Source: a virus. Taken from it: a stretch of 60,562 nucleotides of DNA. Below, piece after piece: positions 5,078 to 38,154 of this stretch. The notes below the pieces were generated by a model. That model searched no databases. It saw nothing but the letters and a program-made list of their open reading frames with translations, and was not told the origin of the DNA. The first letter of the stretch is position 1. Every line of letters starts with the position of its first letter. The stretch is taken from the IMG/VR virus record IMGVR_UViG_3300002052_000004, positions 1 to 60,562 of that record; one strand, written 5' to 3'. The position numbers were made by a program, and so were the translations under genes.

Positions 5078-5472
5078 CGTGGACAATTAAAAATATCGCA
5101 GAAACTGTGACGGTGGCGCTACCACAAGACCCCGAAGTGTATAAGGGGCAGTCTGCGAAGGTGTTGAAACAGCATCCAATGCAACAGCAGTATCCGTTTA
5201 TCTTTCCACATGGTGGAAAAGCTCGAATACTTAAATTGGAAGGTGCAGTACATGACAATACTAAGACTATTGCACAGATATATTCGGCATGGTTGAATCA
5301 GTTGGAGACATGGGCGGAGGATAAAGTGAGGATAAAGCTAACATGTGATAGCGGTAAAGGTCATACATCGGAAGAGATGTACTTGGCTAAATTTGACCAT
5401 GAGCCAAGGAAAGGATTCTTACATACTGTTTGGATAAAGATGGAACTTTGGAAGAAGGGGGCTGAGGATTGA
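5074..5472 (+). CDS. Distal tail protein-like
   Basis: This 132-residue beta-rich protein overlaps the tape measure stop by four bases and precedes the hub/fibre gene, the usual place of the distal tail (Dit) component. It contains repeated short strands and a KGHTSEEMYLAKFDHEPRKG segment. No decisive motif is seen; the call rests on order and size. Confidence 0.5.
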   Translation: MTWTIKNIAETVTVALPQDPEVYKGQSAKVLKQHPMQQQYPFIFPHGGKARILKLEGAVHDNTKTIAQIYSAWLNQLETWAEDKVRIKLTCDSGKGHTSEEMYLAKFDHEPRKGFLHTVWIKMELWKKGAED

Positions 5473-8400: not shown

Positions 8401-9098
8401 CAATATGTGAAGCAGGACATACCTGTGAAACAACTTGTCAAGATGAGTGTCAGGCATCATGTCAAAGTGCTTGTCAGGTATCGTGTCAAATTGCGTGCCA
8501 AGTATCGAACCAAATTTGTGCAAGTACTGGAAATTGTGAAAATGCGTGTCAGCAAACGTGCCAGCAAGCAAAGGCATGCGAGTCTGGTGGGGTATGCCAA
8601 GGCATCTGTGAAACTGGACATCTTTGTCAAGTTACTGCTCAGATATGTGATGGAACCCATTCCTGTCAAACCTCTGGACAAGTTGGTCACGAAGGTTACA
8701 CTGCAAAAAAGATTTCATGGACTAAAATACATGATACTGGAATGGGTTCAGAGCAGAAGGTTGAGGTTGGCTCATCATGGGACGTAATTCAGACTGCACT
8801 ATTTACTCCGGGTTCTGATGCACAAGCTTTAACTGGTGTTTTGGTAAGATGGGAAAGAGGTACAGTTGGTGGTGGATATGCAGAGGTTCAGTTTGCGTTA
8901 GTTGAAGGGGTGAATACTCGACATACTTGGTATGCGTATGTGAGTGGAGAACATCCAGATGGGCAGGTTTACATAATGTTACCCCTGCTATTCCCTGGTG
9001 GCACGTACCTTTATGTGAAAGGTCGAACAGCTTCAGGGTACGTGTATGTTAAGGCTGAAATAGAAGTATATCAGAGTCCTGAACATAAACATATTTAG
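5469..9098 (+). CDS. Tail hub/fibre with two cysteine-rich repeat blocks
   Basis: This is a 1209-residue protein starting at TTG 5469. Order: a beta-rich hub-like region (about 1-320), a short CFMDCQLQCQ link near 332, a LamG/ConA-like sandwich (about 340-515), Cys block A (about 521-647, 26 Cys), a second LamG-like domain (about 650-860, with a VDEVCILKAALSAAEI end typical of LamG modules), Cys block B (about 865-1070, 41 Cys), and a beta-rich C-terminal domain (about 1080-1209). In the Cys blocks almost every Cys is followed by Gln or Glu and spaced 4 or 6 residues from the next, with a recurring C-E-x-G-H-x-C-E-L-T-C unit. The protein probably forms the tail tip and receptor-binding fibre. 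A radical SAM enzyme is encoded two genes downstream and could modify it. Disulfide or metal binding are alternatives. Confidence 0.85.
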   Translation: MSYELQYGPSWTAVKPGRVTYGERQNNLRACVATVANTSANRSAFTHNTEVKVFLNGDQILYGQVKAPVDEGEFLKVKIVDRAIQLTRDVWERDQGQSDKKVIKYTTSAASTIGGHILSGTGFSLGACPGTTVSIRFEYVTRLQAIAALAKALGLDWWVNDNKMVYIGTNNTARGTIGTCMWAKKEPDDEAKRDQIFLKGVDDNGTAIEVTSPDPPTGTNAAYFTARNPMDATTLQIVADALLAELNQTQKVVKANYAAADGVVGTNVLLRPGNTMNINWGTVSETAIEVIVVELKDEKLTVHCGVYRPEVEELERELGVKIDIQETSSVACFMDCQLQCQTSDQVSTLADEFEGTGVLWNEINGTWAISGGYYKQTNTASAHHKSVLKYCKFADGEVQATCVPKNTSKVCGVIMRKQDGADTYYFAWLNVSTATITLWKMIAGTPAMITSYSDGSILYDTAYRVAMQIQGDAIRVFLNGEKLIDTTDGSITGAGTAGLISYAGEHWFERFAFYPGQFPSGCTETCQTECQLGEQICASTGNCESSCQSTPCQSQDCEAGGICQNDCEAGHRCELTCEFACQAGCQISEACQLACQPVCQTSCQDSGTCQVQCQASVQTCAQSGQCESACQGACQGVGTCEDVCQTDNQMHRILTDYKAVWHCNEESGTDLYDSSKYGNHGSENGPTTIYSAGKFGYGKKYNGSSNWHSIPHSASLNITGTKITIMAWIKTDGGAGSGYIVCKNLDAIGNIQYALLWYATGPVLRFYADGAQRGNDSGTLSTGILYHVAVVYNGTDVRFYVNGELSGTPGAWTSPITSTTHPLCIGRRNAGTYYDGMVDEVCILKAALSAAEIKAIYNASELPIFVCEQACESTCQGTEACETGGICQDACQLGHRCELTCETNCQVACQIDCETTSACETSGVCQGICETGHQCELTCETDCQAGTQICASSGACESSCQSTPCQSQDCEAAGVCQAICEAGHTCETTCQDECQASCQSACQVSCQIACQVSNQICASTGNCENACQQTCQQAKACESGGVCQGICETGHLCQVTAQICDGTHSCQTSGQVGHEGYTAKKISWTKIHDTGMGSEQKVEVGSSWDVIQTALFTPGSDAQALTGVLVRWERGTVGGGYAEVQFALVEGVNTRHTWYAYVSGEHPDGQVYIMLPLLFPGGTYLYVKGRTASGYVYVKAEIEVYQSPEHKHI

Positions 9099-9122: not shown

Positions 9123-9419
9123 ATGGAATTGTTGAACGAAACATTTGAAGTAGAGACAAAGAAAAGCAAAGAATACACATTTGTTGCACAGAAAGGTCTT
9201 TCGGGAATGGATGTGTACGCCAAAGTTAACCCAACAGAGACCCAACTTTCACCAAGTGGAGTATCCATTGAAGTGACAAAGAAAGGAAAGATAGTTCGCG
9301 AGATACAACTGAAAAATGTAGCATTTGCCATTGGCAATGCTGAAGGTACCTACAAAGTAATAATTAAGAACAAGAATCCACTGACGGTGACAGGAACTGT
9401 AAGAGTAGTGACTGTATAA
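9123..9419 (+). CDS. Small beta-sandwich tail-tip protein
   Basis: This 98-residue, Lys-rich, all-beta protein has no cysteine. It follows the hub/fibre gene with a GGAGG site and overlaps the radical SAM gene by one base (TAATG). Its predicted fold resembles a single Ig-like module. It may be a fibre accessory or a partner of the radical SAM enzyme; neither is shown by the sequence. Confidence 0.6.
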   Translation: MELLNETFEVETKKSKEYTFVAQKGLSGMDVYAKVNPTETQLSPSGVSIEVTKKGKIVREIQLKNVAFAIGNAEGTYKVIIKNKNPLTVTGTVRVVTV

Positions 9420-10543
9420 TGGTCTGGCAAAGTCTCTCGTTGCACACGTCAAAGCGGTGCAGCCTGAGATGCAAATACTGTTTTCTAGATAAGAACCCTG
9501 AGGATGCTGACTGGAGTACACTAAAGGCAACCCTCGATTGGTGGTTCAAAGTTACCGGACAGAAGACTCATGTACACATCTTTGGGACAGAACCATTGAT
9601 TCGGTATGACCTGCTTCAGAATGTGTTTGAGTATGCAGACTTGTTAGCAAAGAGAACTAAGAAAACATTGACTAAGGGTATTACTACGAATGGAGTAGGG
9701 ATGACTAGAAGTGTAGCTAATTGGTTGACTAAGAATAAGGTGTCTTGCTTGTGTAGTATTGATGGCATGAGAGAGCAGCACGACAAATACAGAGTGTTTC
9801 CAAGCGGGAAGGGTAGTTGGGGTATTGTAAGTTCAAACTTTCGACGCTGGGTAAGTATGAACCCAAATGCTGAAGCGGCCATGACTGTAACACCAGATAG
9901 CATCCCGAAGCTTGCAGAGAATGTTGATGCTATCTACAAGTTGGGATTCTGGGCAGTTGCACTAAATAAATGTGTTGATTCGGGACCAACGTACACCAGT
10001 GAGGATTTTAAGGCTTTATCTCTTGCTTTCCGAAGGGTTAATGACTTGATTATCAAGTATGCTAAGAAGAAGGTGAAGAAACACATTATGTTCATCTCTA
10101 ACATGACAATTAAAAGAGCTCAAGGACGAGCAGTGAAGAATATAATGACATCCTGTGGTGCGGCAAAAGGTTCACTTGCTGCAGACATTTATGGAAAGAT
10201 ATACATTTGCCATAGGGGAGTGTTCGATTACGGAACATTCGGGGTGGGCAATGTTTGGGATGGGTTGGATATGCAGAAGATTCAGGAGTGGCGAGCCAGA
10301 AGAAATAGTCATTGTCTGCACTGTAGAATGGTGGAATGTTCTCCATGCTATGTTATCAATTTTATTCGCAACGGAGATGTGATGAAGACTCCATGGGAAT
10401 CATGTGTTTATAACGAGCTAGTACATGAGGCAAGTTATGACTTAGACAGACAGCTTAAGAGAGAGGGTTTGTATAAATGGTATTGTGGTACTCCTCTGAA
10501 ACCTCATCCTGTAATTCAGGTGAGGCAGAGAAATAAACTATAA
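9419..10543 (+). CDS. Radical SAM/SPASM enzyme, putative peptide-modifying
   Basis: This 374-residue protein has CxxxCxxC at residues 14/18/21 (CSLRCKYC), the [4Fe-4S] site that cleaves S-adenosylmethionine. The C-terminal third has a SPASM-like set of cysteines: one near residue 245, one in KIYICHR, then C-x2-C-x4-C-x2-C near 299-310 (CLHCRMVECSPC). SPASM radical SAM enzymes oxidise or crosslink peptides, for example anaerobic sulfatase maturases and thioether-forming RiPP and QhpD enzymes. No formylglycine CxPxR target is evident. Its overlap with the tail-tip gene and closeness to the Cys-rich fibre suggest the fibre is its substrate (inference). Confidence 0.85.
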   Translation: MVWQSLSLHTSKRCSLRCKYCFLDKNPEDADWSTLKATLDWWFKVTGQKTHVHIFGTEPLIRYDLLQNVFEYADLLAKRTKKTLTKGITTNGVGMTRSVANWLTKNKVSCLCSIDGMREQHDKYRVFPSGKGSWGIVSSNFRRWVSMNPNAEAAMTVTPDSIPKLAENVDAIYKLGFWAVALNKCVDSGPTYTSEDFKALSLAFRRVNDLIIKYAKKKVKKHIMFISNMTIKRAQGRAVKNIMTSCGAAKGSLAADIYGKIYICHRGVFDYGTFGVGNVWDGLDMQKIQEWRARRNSHCLHCRMVECSPCYVINFIRNGDVMKTPWESCVYNELVHEASYDLDRQLKREGLYKWYCGTPLKPHPVIQVRQRNKL

Positions 10544-12704: not shown

Positions 12705-13253
12705 TCACACCTCCAATCCTTCCACAAATATCATTTCCTCGGGTAGCTGGTCGATTGAAAAAACTGACGTTTCTACCACTCTGAATTCGACCGGCTCAGA
12801 CCAAAGGAATTTTGGACTTCTGCGTAGTCGCTTATGAATTCGCTGGTACTTATCGTAACCAAAGCATTCACCCAGCAGAGGTCTAAAGTCTGTTAAGATG
12901 GGAAACATCTTACATCCATACGGGCGAGCGCCGTATATAGTGCAATGGTTCTTCCATTTCTCCGTGTTTAAGAGAAACGGACACTTATCACCTTTGTACA
13001 ACTTGTAAGTCTTCTCGCCAGCGTCCCCTAAGTACTTATTGATAAAAGAGGCCAAACCTTCGACGGAATCACTATAACCGAGATATTTGCTGACTCTCTT
13101 CAGGTCAAACGGACCCCATTGTGCACCAATCTTACAACACTTTCCACAACGTTGACACTCGAATGGTATGAATATATCTCCGTCGGTGAAATGCATTATA
13201 CATCCTAGGATTAAGCCTTTTTTCCTATAGTCCTTAGACGTCTGAAGTTCCAT
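12705..13253 (-). CDS. YkgJ-like CxxCxxCC cluster protein
   Basis: This 182-residue protein carries CQRCGKCC (about residues 35-42) and later single cysteines, including CPFL, CTIYGARPYGC and ECFGY. This is the pattern of the YkgJ/UPF0153 family of zinc- or iron-chelating proteins, whose function is unknown. A shorter relative is encoded at 50897-51214 in the late operon. Confidence 0.75.
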   Translation of the reverse strand: MELQTSKDYRKKGLILGCIMHFTDGDIFIPFECQRCGKCCKIGAQWGPFDLKRVSKYLGYSDSVEGLASFINKYLGDAGEKTYKLYKGDKCPFLLNTEKWKNHCTIYGARPYGCKMFPILTDFRPLLGECFGYDKYQRIHKRLRRSPKFLWSEPVEFRVVETSVFSIDQLPEEMIFVEGLEV

Positions 13254-14753: not shown

Positions 14754-14893
14754 ATTGGTACCTCTCCTTTCGGTAGTTGTAAACAAATCTCCCCGTTGAT
14801 TAATCTGATAACCGGATGTTTCCCGAGGGATAACAATCGCCAATAAGTGTCCATAAGAGAGAGCCAGTACTGTGGAATGATTAAAGTTGTCAT
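14750..14893 (-). CDS. Small coupled protein, unknown
   Basis: This 47-residue protein overlaps the stop of the ERCC4 gene (ATGA) at its start and the ATG of the AAA+ gene at its end. The tight coupling supports it as real. It is hydrophobic and Trp-containing with no known motif. Confidence 0.55.
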   Translation of the reverse strand: MTTLIIPQYWLSLMDTYWRLLSLGKHPVIRLINGEICLQLPKGEVPI

Positions 14894-15561
14894 ATGTTCG
14901 CTAGCCCCTTCATCTTCATGAATGTCTTCTCCCCGATACCTTCCATGACTAGGACTTGTGATGGATTATACTTTATCGCGTGCAGCACTCCAAACAGCCC
15001 GCCGAATTTCTTAACCAATCTTATCGCTAACTTAGGTGAGATATCCAGAGCTCTCGCCACAACAGCAACTGACCGAACTCGACTGTACTCTTTAAGTTTC
15101 TTCCTCTTTGGCATCAGCAATTTCCCCTCTTCGACCTTCTCCGCCACCTTTATAATTTCTTCGAGCCATTCTTCCGCAGGTTGCTCGGTCCAAATTAAAT
15201 TCATATCATACCTGACTACAGTCGCACCAATTGCGCCGTAAATCGAATTCCTATTGAGCGTCTGTTTGCGCTTAGCGAACTGCTCCTCCACGGTCACAAT
15301 CTTACCTGTGACCAAGAGGAATCCAATACGCTTATACGCAGAACACTGTGCATACATTCTGTTAAGTTGTTTGAATAACCTCGGAGTTTCTCCGCGTCTC
15401 GCGAATATAGAGTTAACCAAGTCGCCGACATCTTTTCTCTCAAAGACACACATCGGTGATGCAAAGTCTCCAACAGTCAGTGCCATCTGCTTAAATCCTC
15501 TCTTTATCGCAAGCTTCCGAATATCTAATGGCTCGCGTGAATCAACAAACATCTTCAGCAT
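14890..15561 (-). CDS. ERCC4/XPF-family nuclease with helix-hairpin-helix domain
   Basis: This is a 223-residue protein; ATG 15561 is preferred for its GGAGGTGGAAAT site. VDSRE near the N-terminus, GDF, and ERKDVGDL match the ERKx3D catalytic signature of XPF/Mus81/Hef nucleases. The C-terminal third has paired HhH motifs (SPKLAIRLVKKFGGLFGVL, VMEGIGEKTFMKM) that bind branched DNA. The enzyme probably cleaves flaps or forks during viral replication and recombination. It lacks the helicase domain of Hef. Confidence 0.85.
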   Translation of the reverse strand: MLKMFVDSREPLDIRKLAIKRGFKQMALTVGDFASPMCVFERKDVGDLVNSIFARRGETPRLFKQLNRMYAQCSAYKRIGFLLVTGKIVTVEEQFAKRKQTLNRNSIYGAIGATVVRYDMNLIWTEQPAEEWLEEIIKVAEKVEEGKLLMPKRKKLKEYSRVRSVAVVARALDISPKLAIRLVKKFGGLFGVLHAIKYNPSQVLVMEGIGEKTFMKMKGLANI

Positions 15562-15661
15562 ATTTCCACCTCCAGCTAATACTGTACCCACATCGACCAC
15601 AGTGAGCTCCTCCAGTTGTGCAGTATAGTTCTCGTGAACCACATCTGGGACAATATTCCAT
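15542..15661 (-). CDS. Zinc-ribbon mini-protein
   Basis: This 39-residue protein has a CPRCG knuckle near the N-terminus and CGRCGYS further on, a four-cysteine zinc ribbon. It starts within the stop of the HNH gene (TAATG) and overlaps the ERCC4 gene start by 20 bases. Confidence 0.65.
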   Translation of the reverse strand: MEYCPRCGSRELYCTTGGAHCGRCGYSISWRWKYAEDVC

Positions 15662-15924
15662 TATTCTTTCTTCCTCCTTCTTCTCCAACTATCCGTGTGA
15701 CTATGATGGTCTTCGCACCTTAACTCCTTCCCCTTCGGATTAAAGTACTCCTTACTATTCGGTCTACTTCTCTTCCCGTATGGGACTATGTGGTGGATTT
15801 GAATATTCGCCGTGCCACCACACACGACACATTTTCCGCCTAGTAAAAAAATGAGGCGATTACGCATCCGTCGATATCGTTGCTTGTCATACTCCCGTTT
15901 TCTCTGCTTGTCCTTGTACGGCAT
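15661..15924 (-). CDS. HNH endonuclease, small
   Basis: This 87-residue protein has CVVCGG, IQIHHIVPYG and RCEDHHS, the zinc-bound HNH core. It may be a free-standing homing nuclease or take part in packaging or host DNA cutting. It sits directly downstream of the preQ0 gene queC. Confidence 0.85.
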   Translation of the reverse strand: MPYKDKQRKREYDKQRYRRMRNRLIFLLGGKCVVCGGTANIQIHHIVPYGKRSRPNSKEYFNPKGKELRCEDHHSHTDSWRRRRKKE

Positions 15925-16078
15925 GGTTTAATGGCTTCCCACAGAACGGACAGATTGTAACACCACCGGCTGTTGCTGGTGATTTCACTAACCACGGTGG
16001 AACCGGTGAGTAACAATGTGGACATCTCACGTACTTCTTCGGAGCTTCACTTGACAGGGTCAACAACTCCTGCGGCAT
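15887..16078 (-). CDS. Zinc-ribbon protein
   Basis: This 63-residue protein has CPHC and CPFCGKPL knuckles about 24 residues apart. The start at ATG 16078 is inferred; an upstream in-frame ATG at 16141 would lengthen the overlap with queC. Function unknown. Confidence 0.6.
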   Translation of the reverse strand: MPQELLTLSSEAPKKYVRCPHCYSPVPPWLVKSPATAGGVTICPFCGKPLNHAVQGQAEKTGV

Positions 16079-16709
16079 CGAACCCTTTCTTTCTCTGTAC
16101 ACAGGCATTACACTTCCCACAGGGATGTTCTTTGCCTTCATAGCACGACCAAGTCTTCTCCCATGGAGTTCCCAGAGCTTCTCCTCGCAGGACTATCTCA
16201 CACTTCGTATCATCTATCAGTGGTACAACAACATGTGGTTTATCTCTTGAGCCGTATCGTAACATTACATTAATTGCATTAACATACGTAGGTCTTGTAT
16301 CTGGGTATCCTCCACTGTCAATCCAATTGAAGCCTGTGTAGATTTCCTTTGCTCCAACGACTTCCGCTACTGCCGCGCATAGTGCGAGGAAGATTGTATT
16401 CCTCATCGGTACGTATGTAAGTGCGCTGCCAGTCTTCTCCCAGACATCTTCATCCTCCTCATGTTCAGGCACATCAATGGTCTCGTTCGTTAACGCGGAA
16501 CCACCAATTTGTCTAAGGTCAATCTTTATCACCTTATACAGTACATTATAGTGCTTTGCGAGTTTCGCTGCCGCATTCATCTCTTTCTCGTGTCTCTGTC
16601 CGTAGTCAAAGGTTACTGCGAGAACATTCACTGCGTCGTGATGTCTCACTGCTAATCCAAGTGCGACTGCACTGTCCATTCCACCACTAAGCATTACTAT
16701 TGCTTTCAA
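16047..16709 (-). CDS. queC: 7-cyano-7-deazaguanine (preQ0) synthase
   Basis: This 220-residue enzyme converts 7-carboxy-7-deazaguanine to preQ0 with ATP and ammonia. It has the PP-loop SGGMDS at residues 8-13, a TYVPMRN segment, and the C-terminal zinc site SCYEGKEHPCGKCNAC (about 187-203). Length is normal for QueC. The TTG start at 16709 follows an AGGTG site and overlaps the previous gene by four bases. With folE, queE and queD nearby the virus has the whole GTP-to-preQ0 route. Confidence 0.95.
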   Translation of the reverse strand: MKAIVMLSGGMDSAVALGLAVRHHDAVNVLAVTFDYGQRHEKEMNAAAKLAKHYNVLYKVIKIDLRQIGGSALTNETIDVPEHEEDEDVWEKTGSALTYVPMRNTIFLALCAAVAEVVGAKEIYTGFNWIDSGGYPDTRPTYVNAINVMLRYGSRDKPHVVVPLIDDTKCEIVLRGEALGTPWEKTWSCYEGKEHPCGKCNACVQRKKGFDAAGVVDPVK

Positions 16710-16987
16710 GACTTTTCACCTCCCTTTACGCTTTTCTTTTCTGTTTCCTTCGTTTCCTCGGTTTTCGGAGGCTCTACAACTTTAGGTACCGGTGTAGGTT
16801 TAAGGAATGCTAGTAGCTCCTCCGAAAGTTCCTTCTCCAGTTTCTTCACTGTCGCAGTTATCTTCCTTTCCTTTGCTTTCCCGTCAAGTCCAGTCGTGTT
16901 TACGGATTCGAACTTCTCTGCTGGAAGACTAACTGTCACTCGTGTTGTATTTGCCGCCGTAATTACTTTCTTTACTTCATATTGCAT
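16706..16987 (-). CDS. Unknown protein between folE and queC
   Basis: This 93-residue protein starts at ATG 16987 with an AAGGAGGTGAGAAT site. The N-terminal half is beta-rich (YEVKKVITAANTTRVTVSLP) and the C-terminus is Pro/Glu/Lys-rich and likely disordered. It lies inside the preQ0 cassette, but no role can be read from the sequence. Confidence 0.65.
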   Translation of the reverse strand: MQYEVKKVITAANTTRVTVSLPAEKFESVNTTGLDGKAKERKITATVKKLEKELSEELLAFLKPTPVPKVVEPPKTEETKETEKKSVKGGEKS

Positions 16988-16991
16988 ATTC

Positions 16992-17576
16992 TCACCTCCT
17001 TGTTCCATATATCAACTTTAGTGCCTCGTTTCTCGGTGGTTCAAAGTTGAGAAAGACCCCCCGTACTGCGTTTGTCACGGTGTACGCATTCGTATGTGCT
17101 GGCATACCGTAATCAAACTTTCCTCCGACTAACATGCAGGTATGCGTCCCTTCGATAACTACCATGCATCCAAGTGGTTCGAGACATTCATCGATTACAT
17201 CTGCCAACTCCGTATTCATTCCCTCCTGTATCTGTGGTCGCTTAGATATCGCTCGAACAGCACTAACGAACTTTGAAAGTCCGACAATCTTCTTGTGCGG
17301 AATGTACGCGATGTGTACTTTACCAAAGAACGGCCAGAGATGATGACAACACATAGAGACGAACTCTATATCCTTCACGATTACCATCTCACCGTGTTCG
17401 ACAGACAATGGTCGCTCAAAGAACTTCCTAATATCGATGCCAACTCCTGCTGTCATGTCCTTATACAGGTCAACAATCCTCCTCGGTGTCTCCTCCAACT
17501 CGTCAGTGAGCTCTATGCCACAACATAGCAGTAGGTCTCTCGCTTTACGTTCCTTTTCTTTCTGTGTATGCTCCAA
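16992..17576 (-). CDS. folE: GTP cyclohydrolase I
   Basis: This 194-residue enzyme makes dihydroneopterin triphosphate from GTP, the first step to preQ0. The CCHHLWPFFGKVHIAYIP motif (Cys76/77, His78/79) and a later Cys147 in THTCM supply the zinc ligands. PLGCMVVIEGTH matches the family core. TTG start with a TTGGAGGTGAAATAG site. Most archaea use an unrelated type IB enzyme for this step, so a type IA FolE in an archaeal virus suggests transfer from bacteria or phages. Confidence 0.93.
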   Translation of the reverse strand: MEHTQKEKERKARDLLLCCGIELTDELEETPRRIVDLYKDMTAGVGIDIRKFFERPLSVEHGEMVIVKDIEFVSMCCHHLWPFFGKVHIAYIPHKKIVGLSKFVSAVRAISKRPQIQEGMNTELADVIDECLEPLGCMVVIEGTHTCMLVGGKFDYGMPAHTNAYTVTNAVRGVFLNFEPPRNEALKLIYGTRR

Positions 17577-17594
17577 CTATTTCACCTCCAATAA

Positions 17595-17765
17595 CTACCC
17601 TCGTAATGGTATTTGTGTACGGTTGCAAGACCATACAGAATCGAACTCCACTTTGCAATCGTTACATTTAGCCTCGACAACTAGTTCACCCATCTCTATG
17701 TCAAATCTCACTTCATGCAAATGCAGTTCAACATCTTCGGACCTGCATCTGGGACAAATAACCAT
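17595..17765 (-). CDS. Zinc-ribbon mini-protein
   Basis: This 56-residue protein has CPRC (Cys4/Cys7) and CNDC about 27 residues later. It begins directly after queE and lies just before folE in the same transcript. Confidence 0.65.
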   Translation of the reverse strand: MVICPRCRSEDVELHLHEVRFDIEMGELVVEAKCNDCKVEFDSVWSCNRTQIPLRG

Positions 17766-17769
17766 TTAA

Positions 17770-18399
17770 TCACCTCCCTCTCGCTCCGTGCCATAATAGC
17801 TTGTGTAACTGAGGAAGTATGCGAATATTCCGTCCGTTCTCCTGCACCCAGCTGATAATCTTCTTCATCAGTTCGAGGTCATTATCGACAGGCTGAATAC
17901 ATACCTGTTCGAAGTTATACTTATAATCAAGTCGTTTCACTACTGTAAAGTCTGTTTCGTTAGCTACGACGAACTTAAACTCTGCGATACCTGTAGCTCT
18001 GAATTCCTTTATTATAGCAGTGCTGAACGTTTCGCCGGATGAGGGTAACTTCGGGGAAACTACCCAGTGAGTCGGCGACCATTCCTTCGATGGACTCTTC
18101 GTACAGTTCGTCTCAATATGTACTTTCATGTAGAAGAGCCGCTCCATTAATTCAGTTAAATTTTGAACAAGTGGCTCTCCGCCTGTAATGACCACCATCG
18201 GTTGCTCTAGTCTCAACACCTCTCTCGCGATGAACTCCTCAGATAGTTCTAAATGGTCACCTCTATATGCATACTTCGTGTCACACCATTTGCAACGCAA
18301 ATTACATCCATAGAGTCTTATAAACGTACACGGTGTACCTATGTAGAACCCTTCACCCTGTATAGACTTGAATATCCCACCTCTCACGATTTTAAGCAA
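17770..18399 (-). CDS. queE: 7-carboxy-7-deazaguanine synthase, radical SAM
   Basis: This 209-residue enzyme converts 6-carboxytetrahydropterin to 7-carboxy-7-deazaguanine. It has QGEG (14-17), CNLRCKWC (32/36/39) for the [4Fe-4S] cluster, and the TGGEPL motif. The TTG at 18399 is preferred because it lies six bases after AGGAGGT; an ATG at 18405 touches the ribosome site directly. It overlaps a 70-residue gene upstream. It is the second enzyme class of the preQ0 cassette and the second radical SAM enzyme in this genome. Confidence 0.93.
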   Translation of the reverse strand: MLKIVRGGIFKSIQGEGFYIGTPCTFIRLYGCNLRCKWCDTKYAYRGDHLELSEEFIAREVLRLEQPMVVITGGEPLVQNLTELMERLFYMKVHIETNCTKSPSKEWSPTHWVVSPKLPSSGETFSTAIIKEFRATGIAEFKFVVANETDFTVVKRLDYKYNFEQVCIQPVDNDLELMKKIISWVQENGRNIRILPQLHKLLWHGARGR

Positions 18400-18596
18400 T
18401 CCCATACCTCCTCGAATAATAACCTGAGTACCTTCCACCAAGACGGCGTACGAAATGTCCAAGAAAGTGTCACAGGCTTGTCAACGAAGTCCAACTTAAT
18501 TCGAACATTCTCTGGGGTTAACACTATATGGTCAGGTAATGGCATTCTACTTAGCTGTCGCTTTAACGCCCAATAGAACACCCTATCCTTTATCAT
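18384..18596 (-). CDS. Unknown basic protein upstream of queE
   Basis: This 70-residue protein is rich in Arg, Trp and Leu and has a GGAGAGAAAGAAG ribosome site. It overlaps the queE start. No recognised motif. Confidence 0.6.
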   Translation of the reverse strand: MIKDRVFYWALKRQLSRMPLPDHIVLTPENVRIKLDFVDKPVTLSWTFRTPSWWKVLRLLFEEVWDCLKS

Positions 18597-18611
18597 CTTC
18601 TTTCTCTCCTG

Positions 18612-18761
18612 TTAACCTGCCTTAATCAAGAATAGCAACACGCATATCGTTGCAATAACAGTACACAAGATATAAAGAACCCCATAATCTCCACAGTCGG
18701 ATATCTCTATAAGAGCGTCTAAATCAGGTTTGTGTTTGTCGTTTTCTTTTTGTTTCTTCAT
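18612..18761 (-). CDS. Single-pass membrane mini-protein
   Basis: This 49-residue protein has a charged N-terminus (KKQKENDKHK) and one transmembrane helix at about residues 28-47. It overlaps the previous small gene in another frame. Function unknown. Confidence 0.5.
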   Translation of the reverse strand: MKKQKENDKHKPDLDALIEISDCGDYGVLYILCTVIATICVLLFLIKAG

Positions 18762-18882
18762 CTTTATTTCGTCCTTCCGTATTTCGCTCTAACTTTTCAA
18801 TCACCCAGTCGGTACTATCCACGATGAACTTCACGAATCTCCGTACGGCCCATTTGAGCACCTTCCGGATGAGTTTCCACAT
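18724..18882 (-). CDS. Small basic helical protein
   Basis: This 52-residue protein starts at ATG 18882 within the queD stop (TGATG). It is an amphipathic basic helix with a Lys/Arg-rich tail. Function unknown. Confidence 0.5.
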   Translation of the reverse strand: MWKLIRKVLKWAVRRFVKFIVDSTDWVIEKLERNTEGRNKDEETKRKRQTQT

Positions 18883-19286
18883 CAGACCACTGCTCCTTGA
18901 TTCGGTCCCTCACAAAGCATGAAGCCCACATTTTTAATTCCATGAACCATCAACAGTCTTTTCTGAATCTCTTTCGAAATGTCTTCTACTGTTGGAATGC
19001 CGTCAACTGTAACGATGTTTAAATGTACACCGAGCCCTTTGTCTACAATTACTGTGTTTACCTCCTGCCAATATAATTCATCTCTCTTCGATATAATCAA
19101 CGCATGGTCGAATTCTTTAATTATTGTCTTAATAATTCCGAAGTCAACGAACTCTCCTTCTTCACATTCTATAACCATATCTCTCACGAAATACGTGTGA
19201 CCATGTAATGCTCCACACTTCGGGTGCTCCGGTATATAATGTGCGGAGTTAAACGTCAACTCTTTTATATACAATGTATTGAGCAA
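18882..19286 (-). CDS. queD: 6-carboxy-5,6,7,8-tetrahydropterin synthase
   Basis: This 134-residue enzyme converts dihydroneopterin triphosphate to 6-carboxytetrahydropterin. His16, His28 and His30 bind zinc (NSAHYIPEHPKCGALHGHTY), Cys24 is the catalytic cysteine, and CEGPNQG is the conserved C-terminal loop. TTG start behind GGAGGTGAGAGA. Confidence 0.93.
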   Translation of the reverse strand: MLNTLYIKELTFNSAHYIPEHPKCGALHGHTYFVRDMVIECEEGEFVDFGIIKTIIKEFDHALIISKRDELYWQEVNTVIVDKGLGVHLNIVTVDGIPTVEDISKEIQKRLLMVHGIKNVGFMLCEGPNQGAVV

Positions 19287-19417
19287 TCTCTCACCTCCAT
19301 TCTTTTCTGTAGTTTCATCGTCCGATATTTCTTCTTCCGACGAGACTTATCCATATCCATTCGGTCAAATCGCGCTTCTGTTCGGTAGGTTAACTCTCGC
19401 CGTTTAGTTTTTCCCAT
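19265..19417 (-). CDS. Small highly basic protein
   Basis: This 50-residue protein is rich in Lys and Arg (DKSRRKKKYRTMKLQKRM) and starts three bases after the stop of an extremely acidic peptide gene. It runs over the queD start, so the frame is supported mainly by coupling. It may bind nucleic acid. Confidence 0.45.
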   Translation of the reverse strand: MGKTKRRELTYRTEARFDRMDMDKSRRKKKYRTMKLQKRMEVRDCSIHCI

Positions 19418-19419
19418 TT

Positions 19420-19503
19420 CTACCACTCTTCGTCTTCTTCATCTTCCCATTCTTCTTCTTCCTCTGTCACAGTTGATTCATCCTCTTCTTCTTCCTCTGT
19501 CAT
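19420..19503 (-). CDS. Extremely acidic 27-residue peptide
   Basis: This peptide starts at ATG 19503, overlapping the Cas4-like nuclease stop (ATGA). About two thirds of residues are Glu or Asp, in two EEEEE runs. It is coupled to a basic gene immediately downstream. A DNA-mimic or charge-partner role is possible but unproven. Confidence 0.5.
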   Translation of the reverse strand: MTEEEEEDESTVTEEEEEWEDEEDEEW

Positions 19504-20261
19504 GCGGCTATCACCTCCCTGTGGTTCTGCCAGCATGGGCAGTCTAAGATATACGAACAATACCGACAGAAACGTGACGCTCGGCAAGGGAAATAATTAT
19601 CCTCATGGGCTTGACGAAAATCTCCCACCCACTTCCTTACCCGTCTAACCGTGGAGTATTTCACTTCCTCGCTCCACGACTTATTCAACTGCGGATTATA
19701 GTAACCGATGTAATTGCACGGCCAGTCAAACTTCCCTGACCGGTTTATTCCCATGTTATAGAAAGTCAACTCATCGCGCATCTTACTCTCCATGAACCAC
19801 TTGCCCGTTTTGTACTCTATATTCATAAGAGCCTTACACACTGGCAACCGGTCAATCCTATCAATCGTATAAGTCGAATCACCGAGGTCTAACTCTAACT
19901 CCGTTGCAATAGGTTTCCAGTAGATTATCGCAGCATCTGGTCCGACCATAAAAGCTAATCTTACCCATTCTCCTGCCTCCCATTGAAGGAAGTTCCACAT
20001 CCATTCACGGAGTATGGCATTCTTCTCGGGCAAAAATCCTCGAAGGATTGTAAATACACTTTCCTTTGTTCCACATCCCATAAGTCTCTCAACATCCACT
20101 TCGTCGAAGAAATTCTTCGCGAGCTTATGAAATGCTCTGCCGAATTGCATCTCCACTCCATTAATCAACGGTCGGTTCAAGAGCCATCTCTGTTCATAAA
20201 ACCTCGGACAGATTGCCCACATCATGAGCTTGCTCTTACGAACCACAACCATGTTGAGCAT
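19500..20261 (-). CDS. Cas4-like PD-(D/E)XK nuclease
   Basis: This 253-residue protein has an N-terminal Cys (AICPRFYEQRW), His in QFGRAFHK, the nuclease core DRIDRL and IEYKTGK, a downstream ELTFYNMG helix, and a C-terminal C-x6-C-x2-C-x5-C cluster (CRASRFCRYCSYILDCPC). This is the Cas4/AddB-type arrangement with an iron-sulfur cluster. It probably resects DNA ends in recombination-dependent replication; no CRISPR genes are nearby. A TATA box at about 20288-20300 gives a transcript start only a few bases before the ATG, so translation may be leaderless. Confidence 0.85.
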   Translation of the reverse strand: MLNMVVVRKSKLMMWAICPRFYEQRWLLNRPLINGVEMQFGRAFHKLAKNFFDEVDVERLMGCGTKESVFTILRGFLPEKNAILREWMWNFLQWEAGEWVRLAFMVGPDAAIIYWKPIATELELDLGDSTYTIDRIDRLPVCKALMNIEYKTGKWFMESKMRDELTFYNMGINRSGKFDWPCNYIGYYNPQLNKSWSEEVKYSTVRRVRKWVGDFRQAHEDNYFPCRASRFCRYCSYILDCPCWQNHREVIAA

Positions 20262-20287
20262 CTCGCAGTTACATATTCCCTGAACCT

Positions 20288-20300
20288 CTATTTAACTTTT
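20288..20300 (-). promoter_or_regulatory. TATA box for Cas4-like gene
   Basis: Read on the minus strand, an A-rich BRE-like run is followed by GTTAAATAG. It lies about 26-30 bases before the predicted transcript start near the gene's ATG at 20261. Confidence 0.45.
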
Positions 20301-20313
20301 TGGGTGCAAATGT

Positions 20314-20571
20314 TCATTCAGCATACTCCACAGGCCCTAACGCCTGTAAACCTCTATTCGTACCTGTTAGCTTCAATATTCGTGACCGTGGAAAGTATAT
20401 CGGATGTGAGTTATCGAACTCCTCAGGAGGTAATATCTTCATATCCCAGATGTATGCAAACGGGCAGATGTGTGAAAGTCTGTCTGAGAATACGGTGTCT
20501 ACCGCCTCAATCGGACATCTGTCGCAGAAGAAGAAATCTATTGCTTTGTGTATCGCTCTACCTAGGTCCAT
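20314..20571 (-). CDS. Unknown protein downstream of PolB
   Basis: This 85-residue protein overlaps the PolB stop by ten bases. It contains FFFCDRCPIEAV and a beta-rich C-terminus. No family recognised. Confidence 0.6.
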   Translation of the reverse strand: MDLGRAIHKAIDFFFCDRCPIEAVDTVFSDRLSHICPFAYIWDMKILPPEEFDNSHPIYFPRSRILKLTGTNRGLQALGPVEYAE

Positions 20572-23300
20572 TTTGACAACTTCAACTCCTTTGTTTCCTT
20601 CATTTCAAGAGGCCTTGACTTCACTTCGTGATGTAGGACAACCTTCCCTTTGAACTTCTTTGTCTTCTTCCCTTCGGTAACCTCCTCCCAATCTACACCG
20701 ATAGCGTTGAAGAGGGGTTTGAAATGGTTCGTCAATACCAATCCTCTCATCTTCTCCCAGTCTACGAACGGGTAGAGTTCATCTGGCATCCTCTCATCGG
20801 TCTCGGTCAAGCAAATAACATCTGTATCACAACCTCGCTCGGTTTCTGCCAAAGCGTTAGTCTTAAATTTCCTTCCCTCTGCGTACTTCCTCTTACGTTC
20901 CTCTCTCATAAGGTCTTTAGTTTTCGCTCCCTTAATCTTCTTCTTCGTCGCAGTCGTCCTCCGACCGAGCATCCAGAAGAGTAACGGCTTCTTATCCTCG
21001 CGGAAAACCTTCCCGAAACGCTCCGTCATGTAATCGCAGCCATCCTTCCAAGGGTTACGTGCTATATACTTCTCCTCATGCAATCCCCTCGGTAGACCGA
21101 TAGTATTCATCAGCTGTTCAGGTAATGTCATCCATGCATGTTTAATGAGTGCCTTTGCTCCTTCCACTTGTTTCTTCACTAGGACTAACTCCAACCATCG
21201 TAACATCAATCTTCTCGTATATGATGGCGTACTACTTCTCCTCGGTGCAAGTCCGACAACGTAAAGATTATTATTCTTATCCGTATATGCATACCTTTTC
21301 TTCGCCGCTGTAATCCTTCCTCTCTTCTTCTCAATCTTCGGAACGAATATAATCCGTCTACAGTATTGCTCATACTTCGCCTCGATGTTGAATGTCGCTC
21401 CTGCCCTCCACGCAATCCTCTTAAGTGTCTTATTAACTATTGTTTCAATCACCCGGCCTTCTTCTGGCATATCTGTGCGAAGTTGTGTGAAGAGTGAATC
21501 CGTATCACCGTATCTTACTTTATATCCTCCTTTCTCACAATCTATCTTACACTCGAGTAACGCTTTCCTACCGAGGAATGTTATTGCCCTCCTCACAGCA
21601 TCACTGTACAATCGGAAGTTCTCATAGCCGGTAACTCCGTAGTAACTGCACGCGAGAAACTTGTGAAGCGTCTCCAACATCTTATTCATTTCATAGTTAG
21701 GATGTGTTGGAGACATCGTTCGCAGTATTGCCCTATACTTCTCCCTCTCCTCCATGTCGTATCGTACTGCTTTCGGCAAGATTCCTTCTGGTTTCCGACG
21801 AAAGTGCATTACCGTACCATCTTCCATCGGACCGACAATAATGTCATCCCACCGCCAATCCTTCGAGTCGGCAACAAATGTCTCAGGCGAGAGGTTATAC
21901 ACCCGAATCAACATGGGGTACAGGGCTTTCTCGTCTATTATTACAATGTGTTCATGAATCCCTATGTCAGGGAGGAGTACTATCGCTCCTTTCACTCTAT
22001 GCTTCTTTCCGTACTCTCTCGTCGGTAATGGCGCATCTCCACGAAGTCTAAGTAATCGCGTATCTATCAACCGCGAGTTATGTATAGCAAACTCGAGAGG
22101 AAGACCGACTATCCTTCGGAGCCTGTCGAAGTACGCAACAAGTTGTTTCTCCTTATCGAGAATATACAGTGCGTACGCATCCCCCGCACAATACTCCGCC
22201 CATTTAAGAGGGTGCTTCGAACGACTCTCTCTTACCTTATCGCCAAGGTCAACATAATAAAACCCGCACTCTTTCTCCATAACCAAGTGGAAGTCGAATG
22301 TGCTTGTAAAATCCTTCCCTGGTATGACTCTCTTTGCACCTTGCCTCCCTCCGGCCCACTTCCTATACATCTTGTAGAAGTCAATCATCGAGATACCTTT
22401 CACTCGCGATACAAGCCGCCATTTCTTTACCTGAGGTGTTCCTACCTTCCTAGCAATATCCTTTCGCACACCTCTCTGGGGTTTGAACTTACTCTCCGTG
22501 AGTCCGAACGGCGAGAGACGTTTCAAAACACTATGTAACTGCAACTTCTCTCCGCGTCTAATCCAGTACGGCCAATCAAACCCATCGGAGTAGTAACCCC
22601 CTGCTGCATCGAAGTCTTGCCAAACCGACCATAGTGTAGCGTCATGAATCATCGGTCTCTCTTCGTCATATAAGTAAATCGTCGGTTTGACTTTCACATC
22701 CCACTCTCTGCCACCGAGCTTTCTATGAAACGTAATCGGTAGTGTTATGGCATTCTTACAGCCAATGAATCCTTTAGGAATCGGTAGCTCCTCTGTGATG
22801 GGTAAATCCGTTTTAAGCATAAAAAGCGTGAGGTCTTTCGTGTAGTTATTACTGAACTGAAAACTCACAATCGGCCAGATAGGGTCCCTTGGTTTCGCCA
22901 TAATCTCAGGCGGTGTCTCCACTTCGATGTCGAAATAACCTTTCTTCGGCGGGATATCTAAACTCGGTGCAGCGAAAATCTCTCCATTCTCTAAGCCGTA
23001 ACCGCACTTTACCCCTTTGTCGAGCAAGTACCGCCACTCGAAAAGTATGTCTGCCTCGCAGTGATACTTAAACTTATCTCGGAGTCTCCTGACCTCACTC
23101 GGCATTACTGTATCTACCCGTTGAATCGAGTCTCCGAAGAGATTCTTTCCCGCTCCTGTTCCATTCGCCCAGAAGTGAGGAACCTTTCCGTCGATTCGAT
23201 GTGACTGCCTCACTCTATTCTTATCCCTACTACGGAGAAATATTACGGGCTTGCCACCTATCGGATGATAGCCCTGATTCATAAGGTCGAATCTATTCAT
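20562..23300 (-). CDS. polB: Family B DNA polymerase with 3'-5' exonuclease
   Basis: This 912-residue replicative polymerase has Exo I FDIEV (Asp124, Glu126), Exo II SDGFDWPYW (Asp242) and Exo III YCAGD (Tyr370, Asp374). Polymerase motif A is DEKALYPML (Asp456), motif B is KFLACSYYG (from Lys547), and motif C is YGDTDS (597-602). All catalytic acids are present, so both activities should work. It lacks the TPR insertions of protein-primed enzymes, so it probably extends RNA or DNA primers; no primase is recognised in the window. The start overlaps the previous stop (ATGA). Confidence 0.95.
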   Translation of the reverse strand: MNRFDLMNQGYHPIGGKPVIFLRSRDKNRVRQSHRIDGKVPHFWANGTGAGKNLFGDSIQRVDTVMPSEVRRLRDKFKYHCEADILFEWRYLLDKGVKCGYGLENGEIFAAPSLDIPPKKGYFDIEVETPPEIMAKPRDPIWPIVSFQFSNNYTKDLTLFMLKTDLPITEELPIPKGFIGCKNAITLPITFHRKLGGREWDVKVKPTIYLYDEERPMIHDATLWSVWQDFDAAGGYYSDGFDWPYWIRRGEKLQLHSVLKRLSPFGLTESKFKPQRGVRKDIARKVGTPQVKKWRLVSRVKGISMIDFYKMYRKWAGGRQGAKRVIPGKDFTSTFDFHLVMEKECGFYYVDLGDKVRESRSKHPLKWAEYCAGDAYALYILDKEKQLVAYFDRLRRIVGLPLEFAIHNSRLIDTRLLRLRGDAPLPTREYGKKHRVKGAIVLLPDIGIHEHIVIIDEKALYPMLIRVYNLSPETFVADSKDWRWDDIIVGPMEDGTVMHFRRKPEGILPKAVRYDMEEREKYRAILRTMSPTHPNYEMNKMLETLHKFLACSYYGVTGYENFRLYSDAVRRAITFLGRKALLECKIDCEKGGYKVRYGDTDSLFTQLRTDMPEEGRVIETIVNKTLKRIAWRAGATFNIEAKYEQYCRRIIFVPKIEKKRGRITAAKKRYAYTDKNNNLYVVGLAPRRSSTPSYTRRLMLRWLELVLVKKQVEGAKALIKHAWMTLPEQLMNTIGLPRGLHEEKYIARNPWKDGCDYMTERFGKVFREDKKPLLFWMLGRRTTATKKKIKGAKTKDLMREERKRKYAEGRKFKTNALAETERGCDTDVICLTETDERMPDELYPFVDWEKMRGLVLTNHFKPLFNAIGVDWEEVTEGKKTKKFKGKVVLHHEVKSRPLEMKETKELKLSKWT

Positions 23301-23659
23301 GCGTTTTTCCTCGCCTCCTGTTCTTTCTTCTCCTTCGCGAGCTCTGCATAATACTCTCCTATAGTTAAATGACTATACGCGGGCATCGTATAATCATCCA
23401 ATGGAGTTACGAAGTCAAAGAATATCATCGGGTCACTTAAGATAATGTCTATACGCCCTTTCTCGTTTATCCATGTCTCAAGATAAGTTGCGAAGCTATC
23501 TTGGTCTTCATCATCCCAAAAGAACCAACCATGTACGATGCTTATCCATTTAAGGTTGTCAGTTCCTCCACTATTATAATCAACCTGTGGATAGCCGTAA
23601 TCCTCTAACCCTATGTTGGAGCCTGTAGTCACTGTAAGAGCTATCTTATCTTCTTTCAT
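23297..23659 (-). CDS. Unknown acidic protein upstream of PolB
   Basis: This 120-residue acidic protein is rich in aromatic residues and Asp (WFFWDDEDQDSF), with a Lys/Glu-rich C-terminal helix. Its ribosome site is AGGAGGAAGA. Coupling to polB suggests a replication accessory role (inference). Confidence 0.65.
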   Translation of the reverse strand: MKEDKIALTVTTGSNIGLEDYGYPQVDYNSGGTDNLKWISIVHGWFFWDDEDQDSFATYLETWINEKGRIDIILSDPMIFFDFVTPLDDYTMPAYSHLTIGEYYAELAKEKKEQEARKNA

Positions 23660-23747
23660 TCTTCTTCCTCCTATGAGCGCCCCAATATGTTCGACATCTT
23701 ATCAGACACATATCACAATTCGTCCCTGCACACATCTCAACCATCAC
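23646..23747 (-). CDS. Cys-rich mini-protein
   Basis: This 33-residue protein starts at GTG 23747 (or ATG 23744) behind AAAGGAGGTAGTAAA. Four cysteines in CAGTNCDMCLIRC suggest a metal site. Confidence 0.5.
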   Translation of the reverse strand: MMVEMCAGTNCDMCLIRCRTYWGAHRRKKNERR

Positions 23748-23780
23748 TTTACTACCTCCTTTGTCCGTTTGGTCTATGTT

Positions 23781-23804
23781 GTCGTAGTAGTCGTAGTAGT
23801 CGTA
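23781..23804. repeat. Short tandem repeat, 9-bp unit
   Basis: Two full copies and a partial copy of GTCGTAGTA lie in the gap between the transglycosylase gene and the Cys-rich mini-gene. No function is evident. Confidence 0.6.
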
Positions 23805-23806
23805 AA

Positions 23807-24514
23807 TTAAACACTATGTGCAACCTCCAAGAGCTTGTTGATGTTCCAGCGCAGAACATCAAGATACGGTGCAGTTAACTTAGTGTACTCAAAATTACAC
23901 CTCTTCCCTTCGTGCTGTCTGAACACATCGATATACTTCCCAGCGAGTGCTGCGGAGAACGGCATCGATGTATCAACGGAACGAATGAGTCCCTTCGGGT
24001 AGCAGAGGAGCTCGGCGAGTAAATCGCAACCGATAAGATGGTGCTCCTTATTTTTCGCGAGCCATCCTTTGCTGTGTAAGTAGTTGACCACCTGTGGTCT
24101 TAAGTGAAGTTGCTTCTCTAACCATATCGGAAAACACAGTACATCGAGCTCCGGAATCTTTGCGAACTCTAGATAACACGCAATAAAGCTCTCAGCATTG
24201 AACCCTTGTGGAACCGCTGCGAACTTCAAACCATACTTCGGGTGTTTCGCATACTTCCCAACGAACTCCATAGTTGAGCTGATATCATTAATCACATCAG
24301 GTAGGACTATCTCATTCGCTCCCATCTGTTGTGCAAGTCCAACAAGTTCATCCATATCCAGTGGTGTACCTGTCTCGTACGTGCCGTTATCTACCATCTT
24401 ATACTTGTTCTCATTAACAAAGAACTCTGTCGCGTTCTGCGGTAGGATGAAATGTATATCACCGAACCTTGTGTACTCCAAAAGATTCTTCGGTGCGATT
24501 AATCCGACTTTCAC
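23807..24514 (-). CDS. dpdA: DpdA-like DNA 7-deazaguanine transglycosylase
   Basis: This 235-residue TIM-barrel protein resembles tRNA-guanine transglycosylases in their viral DpdA form. It has FILPQNATEFF near the N-terminus, an acidic EIVLPDVIND strand end, FAAVPQGFNAESF in place of the TGT VQGG loop, and HHLIGCD followed by IRSVDTSMPF, a segment shared with phage DpdA proteins. The CxCxxC zinc site of tRNA enzymes is absent. It would exchange guanine in DNA for preQ0 made by FolE-QueD-QueE-QueC. GTG start with AAAGGAGGTTAAAGT. A tRNA substrate cannot be excluded from sequence. Confidence 0.8.
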   Translation of the reverse strand: MKVGLIAPKNLLEYTRFGDIHFILPQNATEFFVNENKYKMVDNGTYETGTPLDMDELVGLAQQMGANEIVLPDVINDISSTMEFVGKYAKHPKYGLKFAAVPQGFNAESFIACYLEFAKIPELDVLCFPIWLEKQLHLRPQVVNYLHSKGWLAKNKEHHLIGCDLLAELLCYPKGLIRSVDTSMPFSAALAGKYIDVFRQHEGKRCNFEYTKLTAPYLDVLRWNINKLLEVAHSV

Positions 24515-24517
24515 ACT

Positions 24518-24781
24518 TTAACCTCCTTTACAACTAGTTCTCGGTAGATTTATCTTCTTCGTAAGACGTTCGTGTACCTTTTCTGCGTAATTAGCTAAGT
24601 CCATCATTTCTTCAGCAAGGACTTTGACAGTAGACTCATTGATTGGTATGTTGGCTGCTCGCGCTGCTTTGAATCGTATCTGTTGCAGAATCATATCTAA
24701 CGGGCAGGTGTCATAGAACTTTTTGTACGTTTGATTTCGTCCTTTAGTAATCCGTTCGCGTTCATCGTTAAATGTGTTCAT
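24518..24781 (-). CDS. Small helical protein next to dpdA
   Basis: This 87-residue helical protein has LDMILQQIRFKAARAANI and EEMMDLANYAEKV. The MDLANYA stretch recalls small nucleotide-modification-associated (Nmad1/DUF1599-like) proteins found in phages with hypermodified DNA; this likeness is from memory and tentative. It lies immediately upstream of dpdA. Confidence 0.55.
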   Translation of the reverse strand: MNTFNDERERITKGRNQTYKKFYDTCPLDMILQQIRFKAARAANIPINESTVKVLAEEMMDLANYAEKVHERLTKKINLPRTSCKGG

Positions 24782-34424: not shown

Positions 34425-34778
34425 TTATTGAGCCTCCCATGGAAATACTATCCACTTAACGGTCTTCTCGTACATCCACGCTGTCGGGATAACTTTACTC
34501 CTCTTATGATAGTACAGAGTGGCAGTCATGTTACTTCGAAAGGGCTCGAGCGTTCCTCCAGAATCAGCTATATCATCCACAATAAGTGTACCGCGCGTTA
34601 TCTCCGTCCTATCCACTATAAGTGGTATGTCCATTAAGTGTGATAATCGTACAGCTACGACCAACCCACCTCTCGGTATACCGAAGACATCAAGAAACTT
34701 TGTCCCTCGAAATAAACGCTTTATCATTTGGCAAGCAGTATCGAACTGCTCCCATGTCATGAACTCTAAGTCTGTCAT
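34425..34778 (-). CDS. Phosphoribosyltransferase-like protein
   Basis: This 117-residue protein has the PRTase hood loop GIPRGGLVVAVRLSHLM and the PRPP-binding motif TLIVDDIADSGGTL. It is shorter than cellular enzymes. It may salvage a purine or pyrimidine base; its presence beside a virus-encoded deazaguanine pathway is suggestive but the substrate is unknown. Confidence 0.8.
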   Translation of the reverse strand: MTDLEFMTWEQFDTACQMIKRLFRGTKFLDVFGIPRGGLVVAVRLSHLMDIPLIVDRTEITRGTLIVDDIADSGGTLEPFRSNMTATLYYHKRSKVIPTAWMYEKTVKWIVFPWEAQ

Positions 34779-37667: not shown

Positions 37668-37687
37668 TTTATAAATCTTTCCGTCCA
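37668..37687 (-). promoter_or_regulatory. BRE/TATA promoter
   Basis: On the minus strand GGACGGAAAG precedes ATTTATAAAG. Transcription would begin about 25 bases downstream, ahead of the gene at 37599. Confidence 0.7.
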
Positions 37688-38121
37688 CGTTCAAGCCTCG
37701 TACACACGAACTTATATGCTCGTTTCGCTCGAGGAGTAAATCTCTTAATGTACTCCTTTATACGTTCCAACTCCCGTGTTGTATACTGCCGTTCAGCATT
37801 ACTTAAATGTTTCGATATTACTTTCAGGCGTGAATCGATATATGGTAATATAAACATCACAGCTTCACGTTTTATGACGAGATATGGTAAGAGTGTTTCG
37901 AGGAAATGTTTACATACTGGCAACTGGTAAACATAGAAGATGAATCCAGTATTTGCTTTTGTTATAAGACCTCTTGGAAATCGTTGTTTTATCAACTCTA
38001 ACACTAGTCGGTGCTGATTGCTGATTGAAATCTGTACTCGCAGGTACTCGCAATGTGGACTTGCAACGTGAATAGACCCTTCTCCATCGAATATTCCAGC
38101 GATGTATTCTACCGATAACAT
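37669..38121 (-). CDS. LAGLIDADG endonuclease-like protein
   Basis: This 150-residue protein has one clear LAGLIDADG helix, YIAGIFDGEGSIHV, near the N-terminus and a second alpha/beta half. One motif suggests it acts as a dimer. It is free-standing, not in an intron or intein. ATG 38121 lies only about 10-15 bases from the predicted transcript start, with no clear ribosome site. Confidence 0.85.
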   Translation of the reverse strand: MLSVEYIAGIFDGEGSIHVASPHCEYLRVQISISNQHRLVLELIKQRFPRGLITKANTGFIFYVYQLPVCKHFLETLLPYLVIKREAVMFILPYIDSRLKVISKHLSNAERQYTTRELERIKEYIKRFTPRAKRAYKFVCTRLERGRKDL

Positions 38122-38154
38122 ATTTGTTCCACATTTAATCCTTGGATGGAACAA

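Follow-up and report, generated by a model that had tools for sequence, protein, structure and literature searches.

A complete preQ0 pathway and a putative DpdA-type DNA transglycosylase in a GATC-depleted tailed virus, probably of an archaeal host

We analyzed a viral DNA of 60,562 nucleotides (IMG/VR record IMGVR_UViG_3300002052_000004, taken here in full as the window), in which the minus-strand interval 15661-24781 carries the genes for synthesis of preQ0 (7-cyano-7-deazaguanine) from GTP together with a gene for a 235-aa DpdA-like transglycosylase (Table 1). A 94-bp repeat is present at both ends of the window, and these ends are spanned by two other IMG/VR contigs, IMGVR_UViG_3300001752_000064 and IMGVR_UViG_2740891978_000006, at 99.99-100% identity; the window was therefore regarded as a complete, circularly assembled genome with a 60,468-bp unit, circular or permuted. 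Genes for terminase, portal, and tail proteins were detected, as in tailed viruses. Searches of IMG/VR with the transglycosylase, polymerase, and terminase sequences returned as relatives only those two fragments of the same virus.

All four preQ0 enzymes, which the original prediction had described as carrying intact catalytic motifs, were borne out by Pfam, PHROGs, and NCBIfam matches and by residue alignments with phage homologues. In these alignments, in which the positions binding zinc, the iron-sulfur cluster, or substrate are preserved, FolE keeps the catalytic residues C76, H78, H79, H145, and C147 (C76, H79, and C147 being the zinc ligands), QueE keeps C32xxxC36xxC39, and QueD keeps C24xxxH28GH and D60-H61, with a match to TIGR03367 (8e-14) that falls under the model cut-off. 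QueC keeps SGGMDS, YGQRHEKE, VPMRN, and the SCY...CxxCxxC site, and its zinc-motif spacing is the same as in cyanobacterial QueC. Measured against the experimentally refined canonical QueC signature (SGGxDS, YxQxHxxE, VPxRN, YPDC, and the zinc cysteines; PMC13329287), the viral protein is complete but for YPDT in place of YPDC. The apparent start codon read from the sequence is TTG in all four genes, each after a strong GGAGG-type ribosome site; for QueE, the start is probably the TTG at 18399 behind GAGGAGGT, so that the gene would occupy 17770..18399. As had been proposed, neither QueF nor an amidotransferase came into view: a genome-wide search for QueF matched FolE only, below the cut-off, and no amidotransferase or ArcS was found in the Pfam-scanned open reading frames (ORFs), 22 plus-strand, mostly structural ORFs having been scanned with PHROGs only.

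Table 1. Genes of the 15661-24781 interval, with the preQ0 and transglycosylase genes listed first
Feature	Coordinates	Strand	Evidence and remarks
QueC, 7-cyano-7-deazaguanine synthase	16047..16709	-	PF06508 6.7e-66; TIGR00364 equivalog, 193 bits vs cut-off 150; TTG start
FolE, GTP cyclohydrolase I	16992..17576	-	PF01227 1.3e-49; TTG start
QueE	17770..18462 (ORF)	-	phrog_2076 2.1e-43; several QueE NCBIfam models to 7.7e-34
QueD, 6-carboxytetrahydropterin synthase	18882..19286	-	PF01242 (PTPS) 1.5e-12; phrog_2389 QueD-like 3e-13; TTG start behind GGAGGTGA
DpdA-like DNA guanine transglycosylase, 235 aa (putative)	23807..24514	-	GTG start; phage-family profile match, TGT motifs in register
Family-B DNA polymerase (PolB)	20562..23300	-	PF00136 3.3e-25; replication module, not modification enzyme
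PD-(D/E)XK nuclease	19500..20261	-	PF12705 4.7e-8; same replication module as PolB
HNH endonuclease	15661..15924	-	phrog_4234 1.2e-10; first in the interval
56-aa zinc-ribbon-like gene, between QueE and FolE	17595..17765	-	weak zinc-ribbon matches only
100-aa gene, between FolE and QueC	16706..17008	-	no family match
120-aa gene, between transglycosylase and polymerase	23297..23659	-	no family match
87-aa gene, directly upstream of transglycosylase	24518..24781	-	no family match

The 235-aa protein was connected to known transglycosylases by way of a family of phage proteins. It gave no Pfam or NCBIfam family match and none to the tRNA guanine transglycosylase (TGT) profile PF01702 at an E-value of 0.1; a weak Pfam match to OB_YrrC was judged to be chance, and sequence and profile searches of PDB returned nothing relevant. 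In tblastn searches, it matched Campylobacter phage IBB_35 (2e-5) and Flavobacterium phages (4e-5; annotated as DNA guanine transglycosylase, DpdA), as well as Bacillus and Weizmannia phages. The sequence also matched phrog_19058 (3.4e-4), a family matched by all 27 members of our alignment, the 235-aa protein included; we take this family to be the "DpdA3" of the 2023 literature. When compared by hhalign with a phage-family profile built without it, the 235-aa sequence alone scored 98.7% (E-value 4.4e-16). A profile of the protein together with diverged phage members scored 99.9% against the family core, 95.3% against DUF6610 (2.2e-8), 67% against TGT (5.2e-5), and 26% against DpdA1, and decoys (reversed and unrelated profiles) reached at most 0.5% in the profile comparisons.

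The active-site motifs agree with this assignment. In an alignment of all groups (DpdA1, DUF6610, and TGT), D42 corresponds to the Asp of TGT DSGGF, D73 to the Asp of MAFDEC, Q103-G104 to VQGG, H159xxG162 to (Y/H)LMG, and D181 to FDCVxP, the TGT nucleophile, so that the five motifs of TGT (PF01702) and of the viral protein are in register. The roles of these residues in TGT are established, and D42, D73, Q103-G104, H159, and D181 (the nucleophile equivalent) are the predicted catalytic residues of the viral enzyme. In contrast to TGT, the 235-aa protein lacks the zinc site CxCxxC...H behind the nucleophile that is present in all 10 TGTs fetched; it has five scattered cysteines and ends approximately 54 residues past D181, without the TGT C-terminal region. 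TGTs formed a clade of their own in the tree (99/98), DpdA1 formed another (97/93), and the 235-aa protein joined the phrog_19058 family with indecisive support (80/89). Taken together, profiles and motifs showed homology of the protein with the DpdA family of phages and, by way of that family, with TGT, in line with the original description of a transglycosylase-like protein without the tRNA-type zinc site.

Relatives of the transglycosylase gene occur in comparable surroundings. Among 80 viral loci gathered by a scan with the Flavobacterium/Campylobacter sequence pair, queF is present in 64, and queD, queE, and folE lie near the phrog_19058-family gene in 28 of the 32 loci having full 9-kb flanks; no matches were obtained when viral contigs were searched with the BSP7/Youna2 pair. 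The phage DpdA proteins of this family (CP220, CPt10, IBB_35, and Flavobacterium immuto) share with the present enzyme the motifs LDN(S/G), PD, QG, HLxG, and (S/T)xDTS, the lack of a zinc domain, and the cassette partners. They differ in length (~258-268 aa versus 235 aa), are approximately 24% identical to it, and stand in loci with a family-A rather than a family-B polymerase and, in most of the relatives, with queF. In a Flavobacterium phage, the member annotated as DpdA lies inside a queD-queE-folE-queF cassette, and in Campylobacter CC_R7 the order is queC-transglycosylase-thymidylate kinase-polymerase. Counterparts with 97-98% identity to the IBB_35 protein occur in CP220 and CPt10, phages in which guanine is reportedly 100% replaced by 7-amido-7-deazaguanine (ADG; dG to dADG) (PMC8306585). 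Bacillus BSP7 and Weizmannia Youna2 carry queC-queD-queE-folE-transglycosylase-DNA polymerase with small genes interspersed and thus, like the present virus, hold all six genes in one block; however, their gene order is different, since the PolB and PD-(D/E)XK nuclease genes separate the transglycosylase gene from the que genes here, and they have bacterial hosts and DNA polymerase A.

Haloarchaeal viruses provide a further comparison. HVTV-1 and other Druskaviridae are tailed and encode FolE, QueD, QueE, and QueC, as does the present virus, but HVTV-1 also encodes a QueF-like protein and carries mainly dPreQ1 (PMC6884629), and its candidate inserting enzyme belongs to a different subfamily, DUF6610. 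The base-inserting enzyme of HVTV-1 was not found in the earlier study (PMC6884629). The DUF6610 protein gp69 (L148:3804-4964), encoded beside FolE, has the transglycosylase motifs, which makes DUF6610 proteins candidates for this role in HVTV-1 and haloarchaeal viruses. Halorubrum virus Serpecor1 has a block resembling that of the present virus, in which genes for a PD-(D/E)XK nuclease, a DUF6610 protein, and PolB lie together.

The tetranucleotide GATC is almost missing from the genome. Only 4 sites (28825, 33382, 55361, and 56012) were observed, against 211 expected from trinucleotides or 277 +/- 16 from shuffles, an approximately 50-fold depletion; the next most avoided tetramer stands at 0.64 of expectation. 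The que/dpdA interval contains none, with ~29-32 expected; the cassette has thus undergone the same purge as the remaining genome and is no recent acquisition. GATC is likewise gone from the stretches read of HVTV-1 (0/67; 16 kb) and Serpecor1 (0/59), partly avoided in Youna2 (6/38), and not avoided in CAjan, BSP7, HHTV-1, phiCh1, and psiM2. GATC avoidance has been published for the HF1-group haloviruses (PMC7230728).

Based on these data, the cassette is predicted to make a 7-deazaguanine base and to insert it in the viral DNA, giving resistance to restriction, a reading to which we assign a probability of roughly 85%. FolE would convert GTP to dihydroneopterin triphosphate, from which QueD, QueE, and QueC would make 6-carboxytetrahydropterin, 7-carboxy-7-deazaguanine, and preQ0, respectively. 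After replication, the 235-aa DpdA-type transglycosylase would cut guanine from the DNA via the nucleophile D181 and join preQ0 in its place, and the modified DNA would resist the restriction enzymes of the host. Base modification is known to protect viral DNA from nucleases of the host; for the present virus, we infer the reaction on DNA, how much of the guanine is replaced, and the role in protection. The proposal of 7-deazaguanine DNA made at the outset gains support from the grouping of the protein with DNA-type enzymes and from the position of que cassettes beside DNA polymerase genes in relatives. A phosphoribosyltransferase gene at 34425-34778 (minus strand; PF00156, 2.7e-7), of a type also found in the Flavobacterium phage cassette, could recycle the guanine freed by the transglycosylase.

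Several observations weigh against this interpretation. Identity between the 235-aa protein and any of its relatives is only ~24%, its branch in the tree is long (2.05 changes per column), and its sequence alone gave no significant match to the DpdA1, TGT, or DUF6610 profiles, the link going via the phage family. Clustering with tRNA enzymes had been named at the outset as what would speak against a DNA-modifying role; the protein fell outside the TGT clade, but its exclusion is without force, as forcing it together with TGT costs 10.9 log units and is only nearly rejected (p-AU 0.0585). Finally, GATC is depleted approximately 50-fold, which would be unnecessary if the modification were fully protective. 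The coexistence of the predicted base replacement with GATC avoidance points to GATC sites that the modification leaves uncovered or unprotected, to avoidance directed at a nuclease insensitive to the modification, or to avoidance that is older; with near-total avoidance beside the cassette, the modification may thus not shield every site.

As to the final base, the present virus has the gene set of the preQ0-type phage group 2 of PMC6884629, namely DpdA, FolE, QueD, QueE, and QueC without QueF, ArcS, or Gat, and it lacks the QueF or QueF-like gene that marks the QueF-dependent preQ1 group (HVTV-1 and Dp-1). By that grouping, the absence of QueF and of an amidotransferase predicts preQ0 or ADG. 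CAjan, which carries dPreQ0 only with dpdA present, falls in the same predicted group, sharing DpdA, a full preQ0 pathway, and the lack of an amidotransferase with the present virus; it differs in having a DpdA1-subfamily enzyme of 306 aa and in not avoiding GATC (99 seen, 98 expected) (PMC6884629 for the grouping and the base). ADG in place of preQ0, as in CP220 and CPt10, would fit a transglycosylase of the same family as theirs, the status of ADG as a QueC intermediate, and the replacement of YPDC by YPDT. The residues of QueC argue otherwise: both the present virus and CAjan (dPreQ0) have YGQRH and YPD, whereas QueC of Firehammervirus F379 has YGSNH and FPD and so lacks the Gln of YxQxHxxE and the Tyr of YPDx. 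Firehammervirus is a genus of Campylobacter phages that we take to include the dADG phages. In E. coli, QueC requires Y131 to form preQ0 (PMC13329287). Because the viral QueC resembles that of CAjan rather than that of Firehammervirus in these residues, in a comparison of few sequences, preQ0 is favored as the final base and is more likely than not, in agreement with the original prediction; ADG is a minority possibility, matched in its low odds by a further-modified or other base.

The pathway might instead supply preQ0 for archaeosine at position 15 of host tRNA, the 235-aa protein being a reduced tRNA transglycosylase or inactive. An archaeal host, if such it is, would use preQ0 in tRNA, and the test against a joint clade with TGT stopped short of formal rejection. 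Nevertheless, this explanation appears improbable, given that the zinc site is missing from the protein, that so few residues behind D181 leave no space for a further tRNA-binding domain, that the protein grouped with DNA-type phage enzymes, and that family members are found in phages with modified DNA (PMC8306585). Modification of a protein by QueC and the transglycosylase is less plausible still: there is precedent for such a use of enzymes with QueC and TGT folds in type IV CBASS, in which Cap9 and Cap10 join deazaguanine to protein (PMC13329287, PMC11996544), but the virus encodes the whole small-molecule pathway, its QueC exceeds the canonical equivalog cut-off, and its transglycosylase is unmatched in a defence library and has relatives that adjoin DNA polymerases in phages.

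An archaeal host is likely for this virus. The best-covering phage matches of PolB are haloarchaeal tailed viruses (~21% identity), the XPF/Hef-type nuclease encoded next to the cassette matched archaeal Hef and Xpf models (7e-17 and 3.6e-13, respectively), and sigma-70 promoter matches in the genome are no more frequent than chance. The terminase had no match in 145 Thermoplasmatota genomes. A host search with phrog_19058 gave one long TGT-like protein, rejected as not a viral homologue, and a QueC scan of genome contigs returned mostly cyanobacterial chromosomes, two Thermoplasmata, and one Phycisphaerae, with no obvious related provirus.

Systems that combine DpdA with a full preQ0 pathway are already known; what is new here is how deeply the enzyme branches, the lineage of the virus, and the combination with an almost complete loss of GATC. 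If the preferred reading holds, 7-deazaguanine DNA modification would extend to an orphan, probably archaeal virus lineage outside the haloarchaeal viruses of the phage collection. Two unannotated families, phrog_19058 in PHROGs and DUF6610 in Pfam, are tied to the superfamily of transglycosylases by common active-site motifs, and the GATC depletion beside the cassette offers a testable point, the use of site avoidance and base replacement together. In a far-reaching version, which we consider unlikely, the tailed virus would infect an uncultured archaeon, and its deeply diverged DpdA3-type enzyme would place preQ0 at all or nearly all G, the first complete replacement outside bacterial phages, with GATC purged against a nuclease that still cuts the modified DNA.

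Several other genes deserve mention. The small genes without known family inside the cassette, pointed out originally, include three without any family match and one with weak zinc-ribbon matches (Table 1). The XPF/Hef-type ERCC4 nuclease with an HhH region (14890-15642, minus strand), which adjoins the cassette, was unmatched in the phage collection. A 1209-aa virion-type protein (5469-9098, plus strand) contains dozens of cysteines in CQxxCQ/CExxCQ repeats and its gene precedes, by two genes, that of a radical SAM/SPASM protein (9419-10543, plus strand), the best NCBIfam matches of which are peptide maturases (PapB ranthipeptide 5.4e-54 and CXXX-repeat target family 9.5e-32, both below the cut-off); the cysteine-repeat protein is possibly a tail protein cross-linked by this enzyme. 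CxxCG-type cysteine clusters occur in the proteins encoded at 12705-13253 (minus strand; PF03692, CxxCxxCC, 3.2e-10) and at 50897-51214 (plus strand; similar by eye only). A LAGLIDADG endonuclease detected in a scan of small minus-strand genes (2.8e-5) is probably the product of 37669-38154 (minus strand), an assignment made by eye. A metallo-beta-lactamase-fold protein with an MG2-like N-terminus is encoded at 52396-53775 (plus strand) within the structural module.

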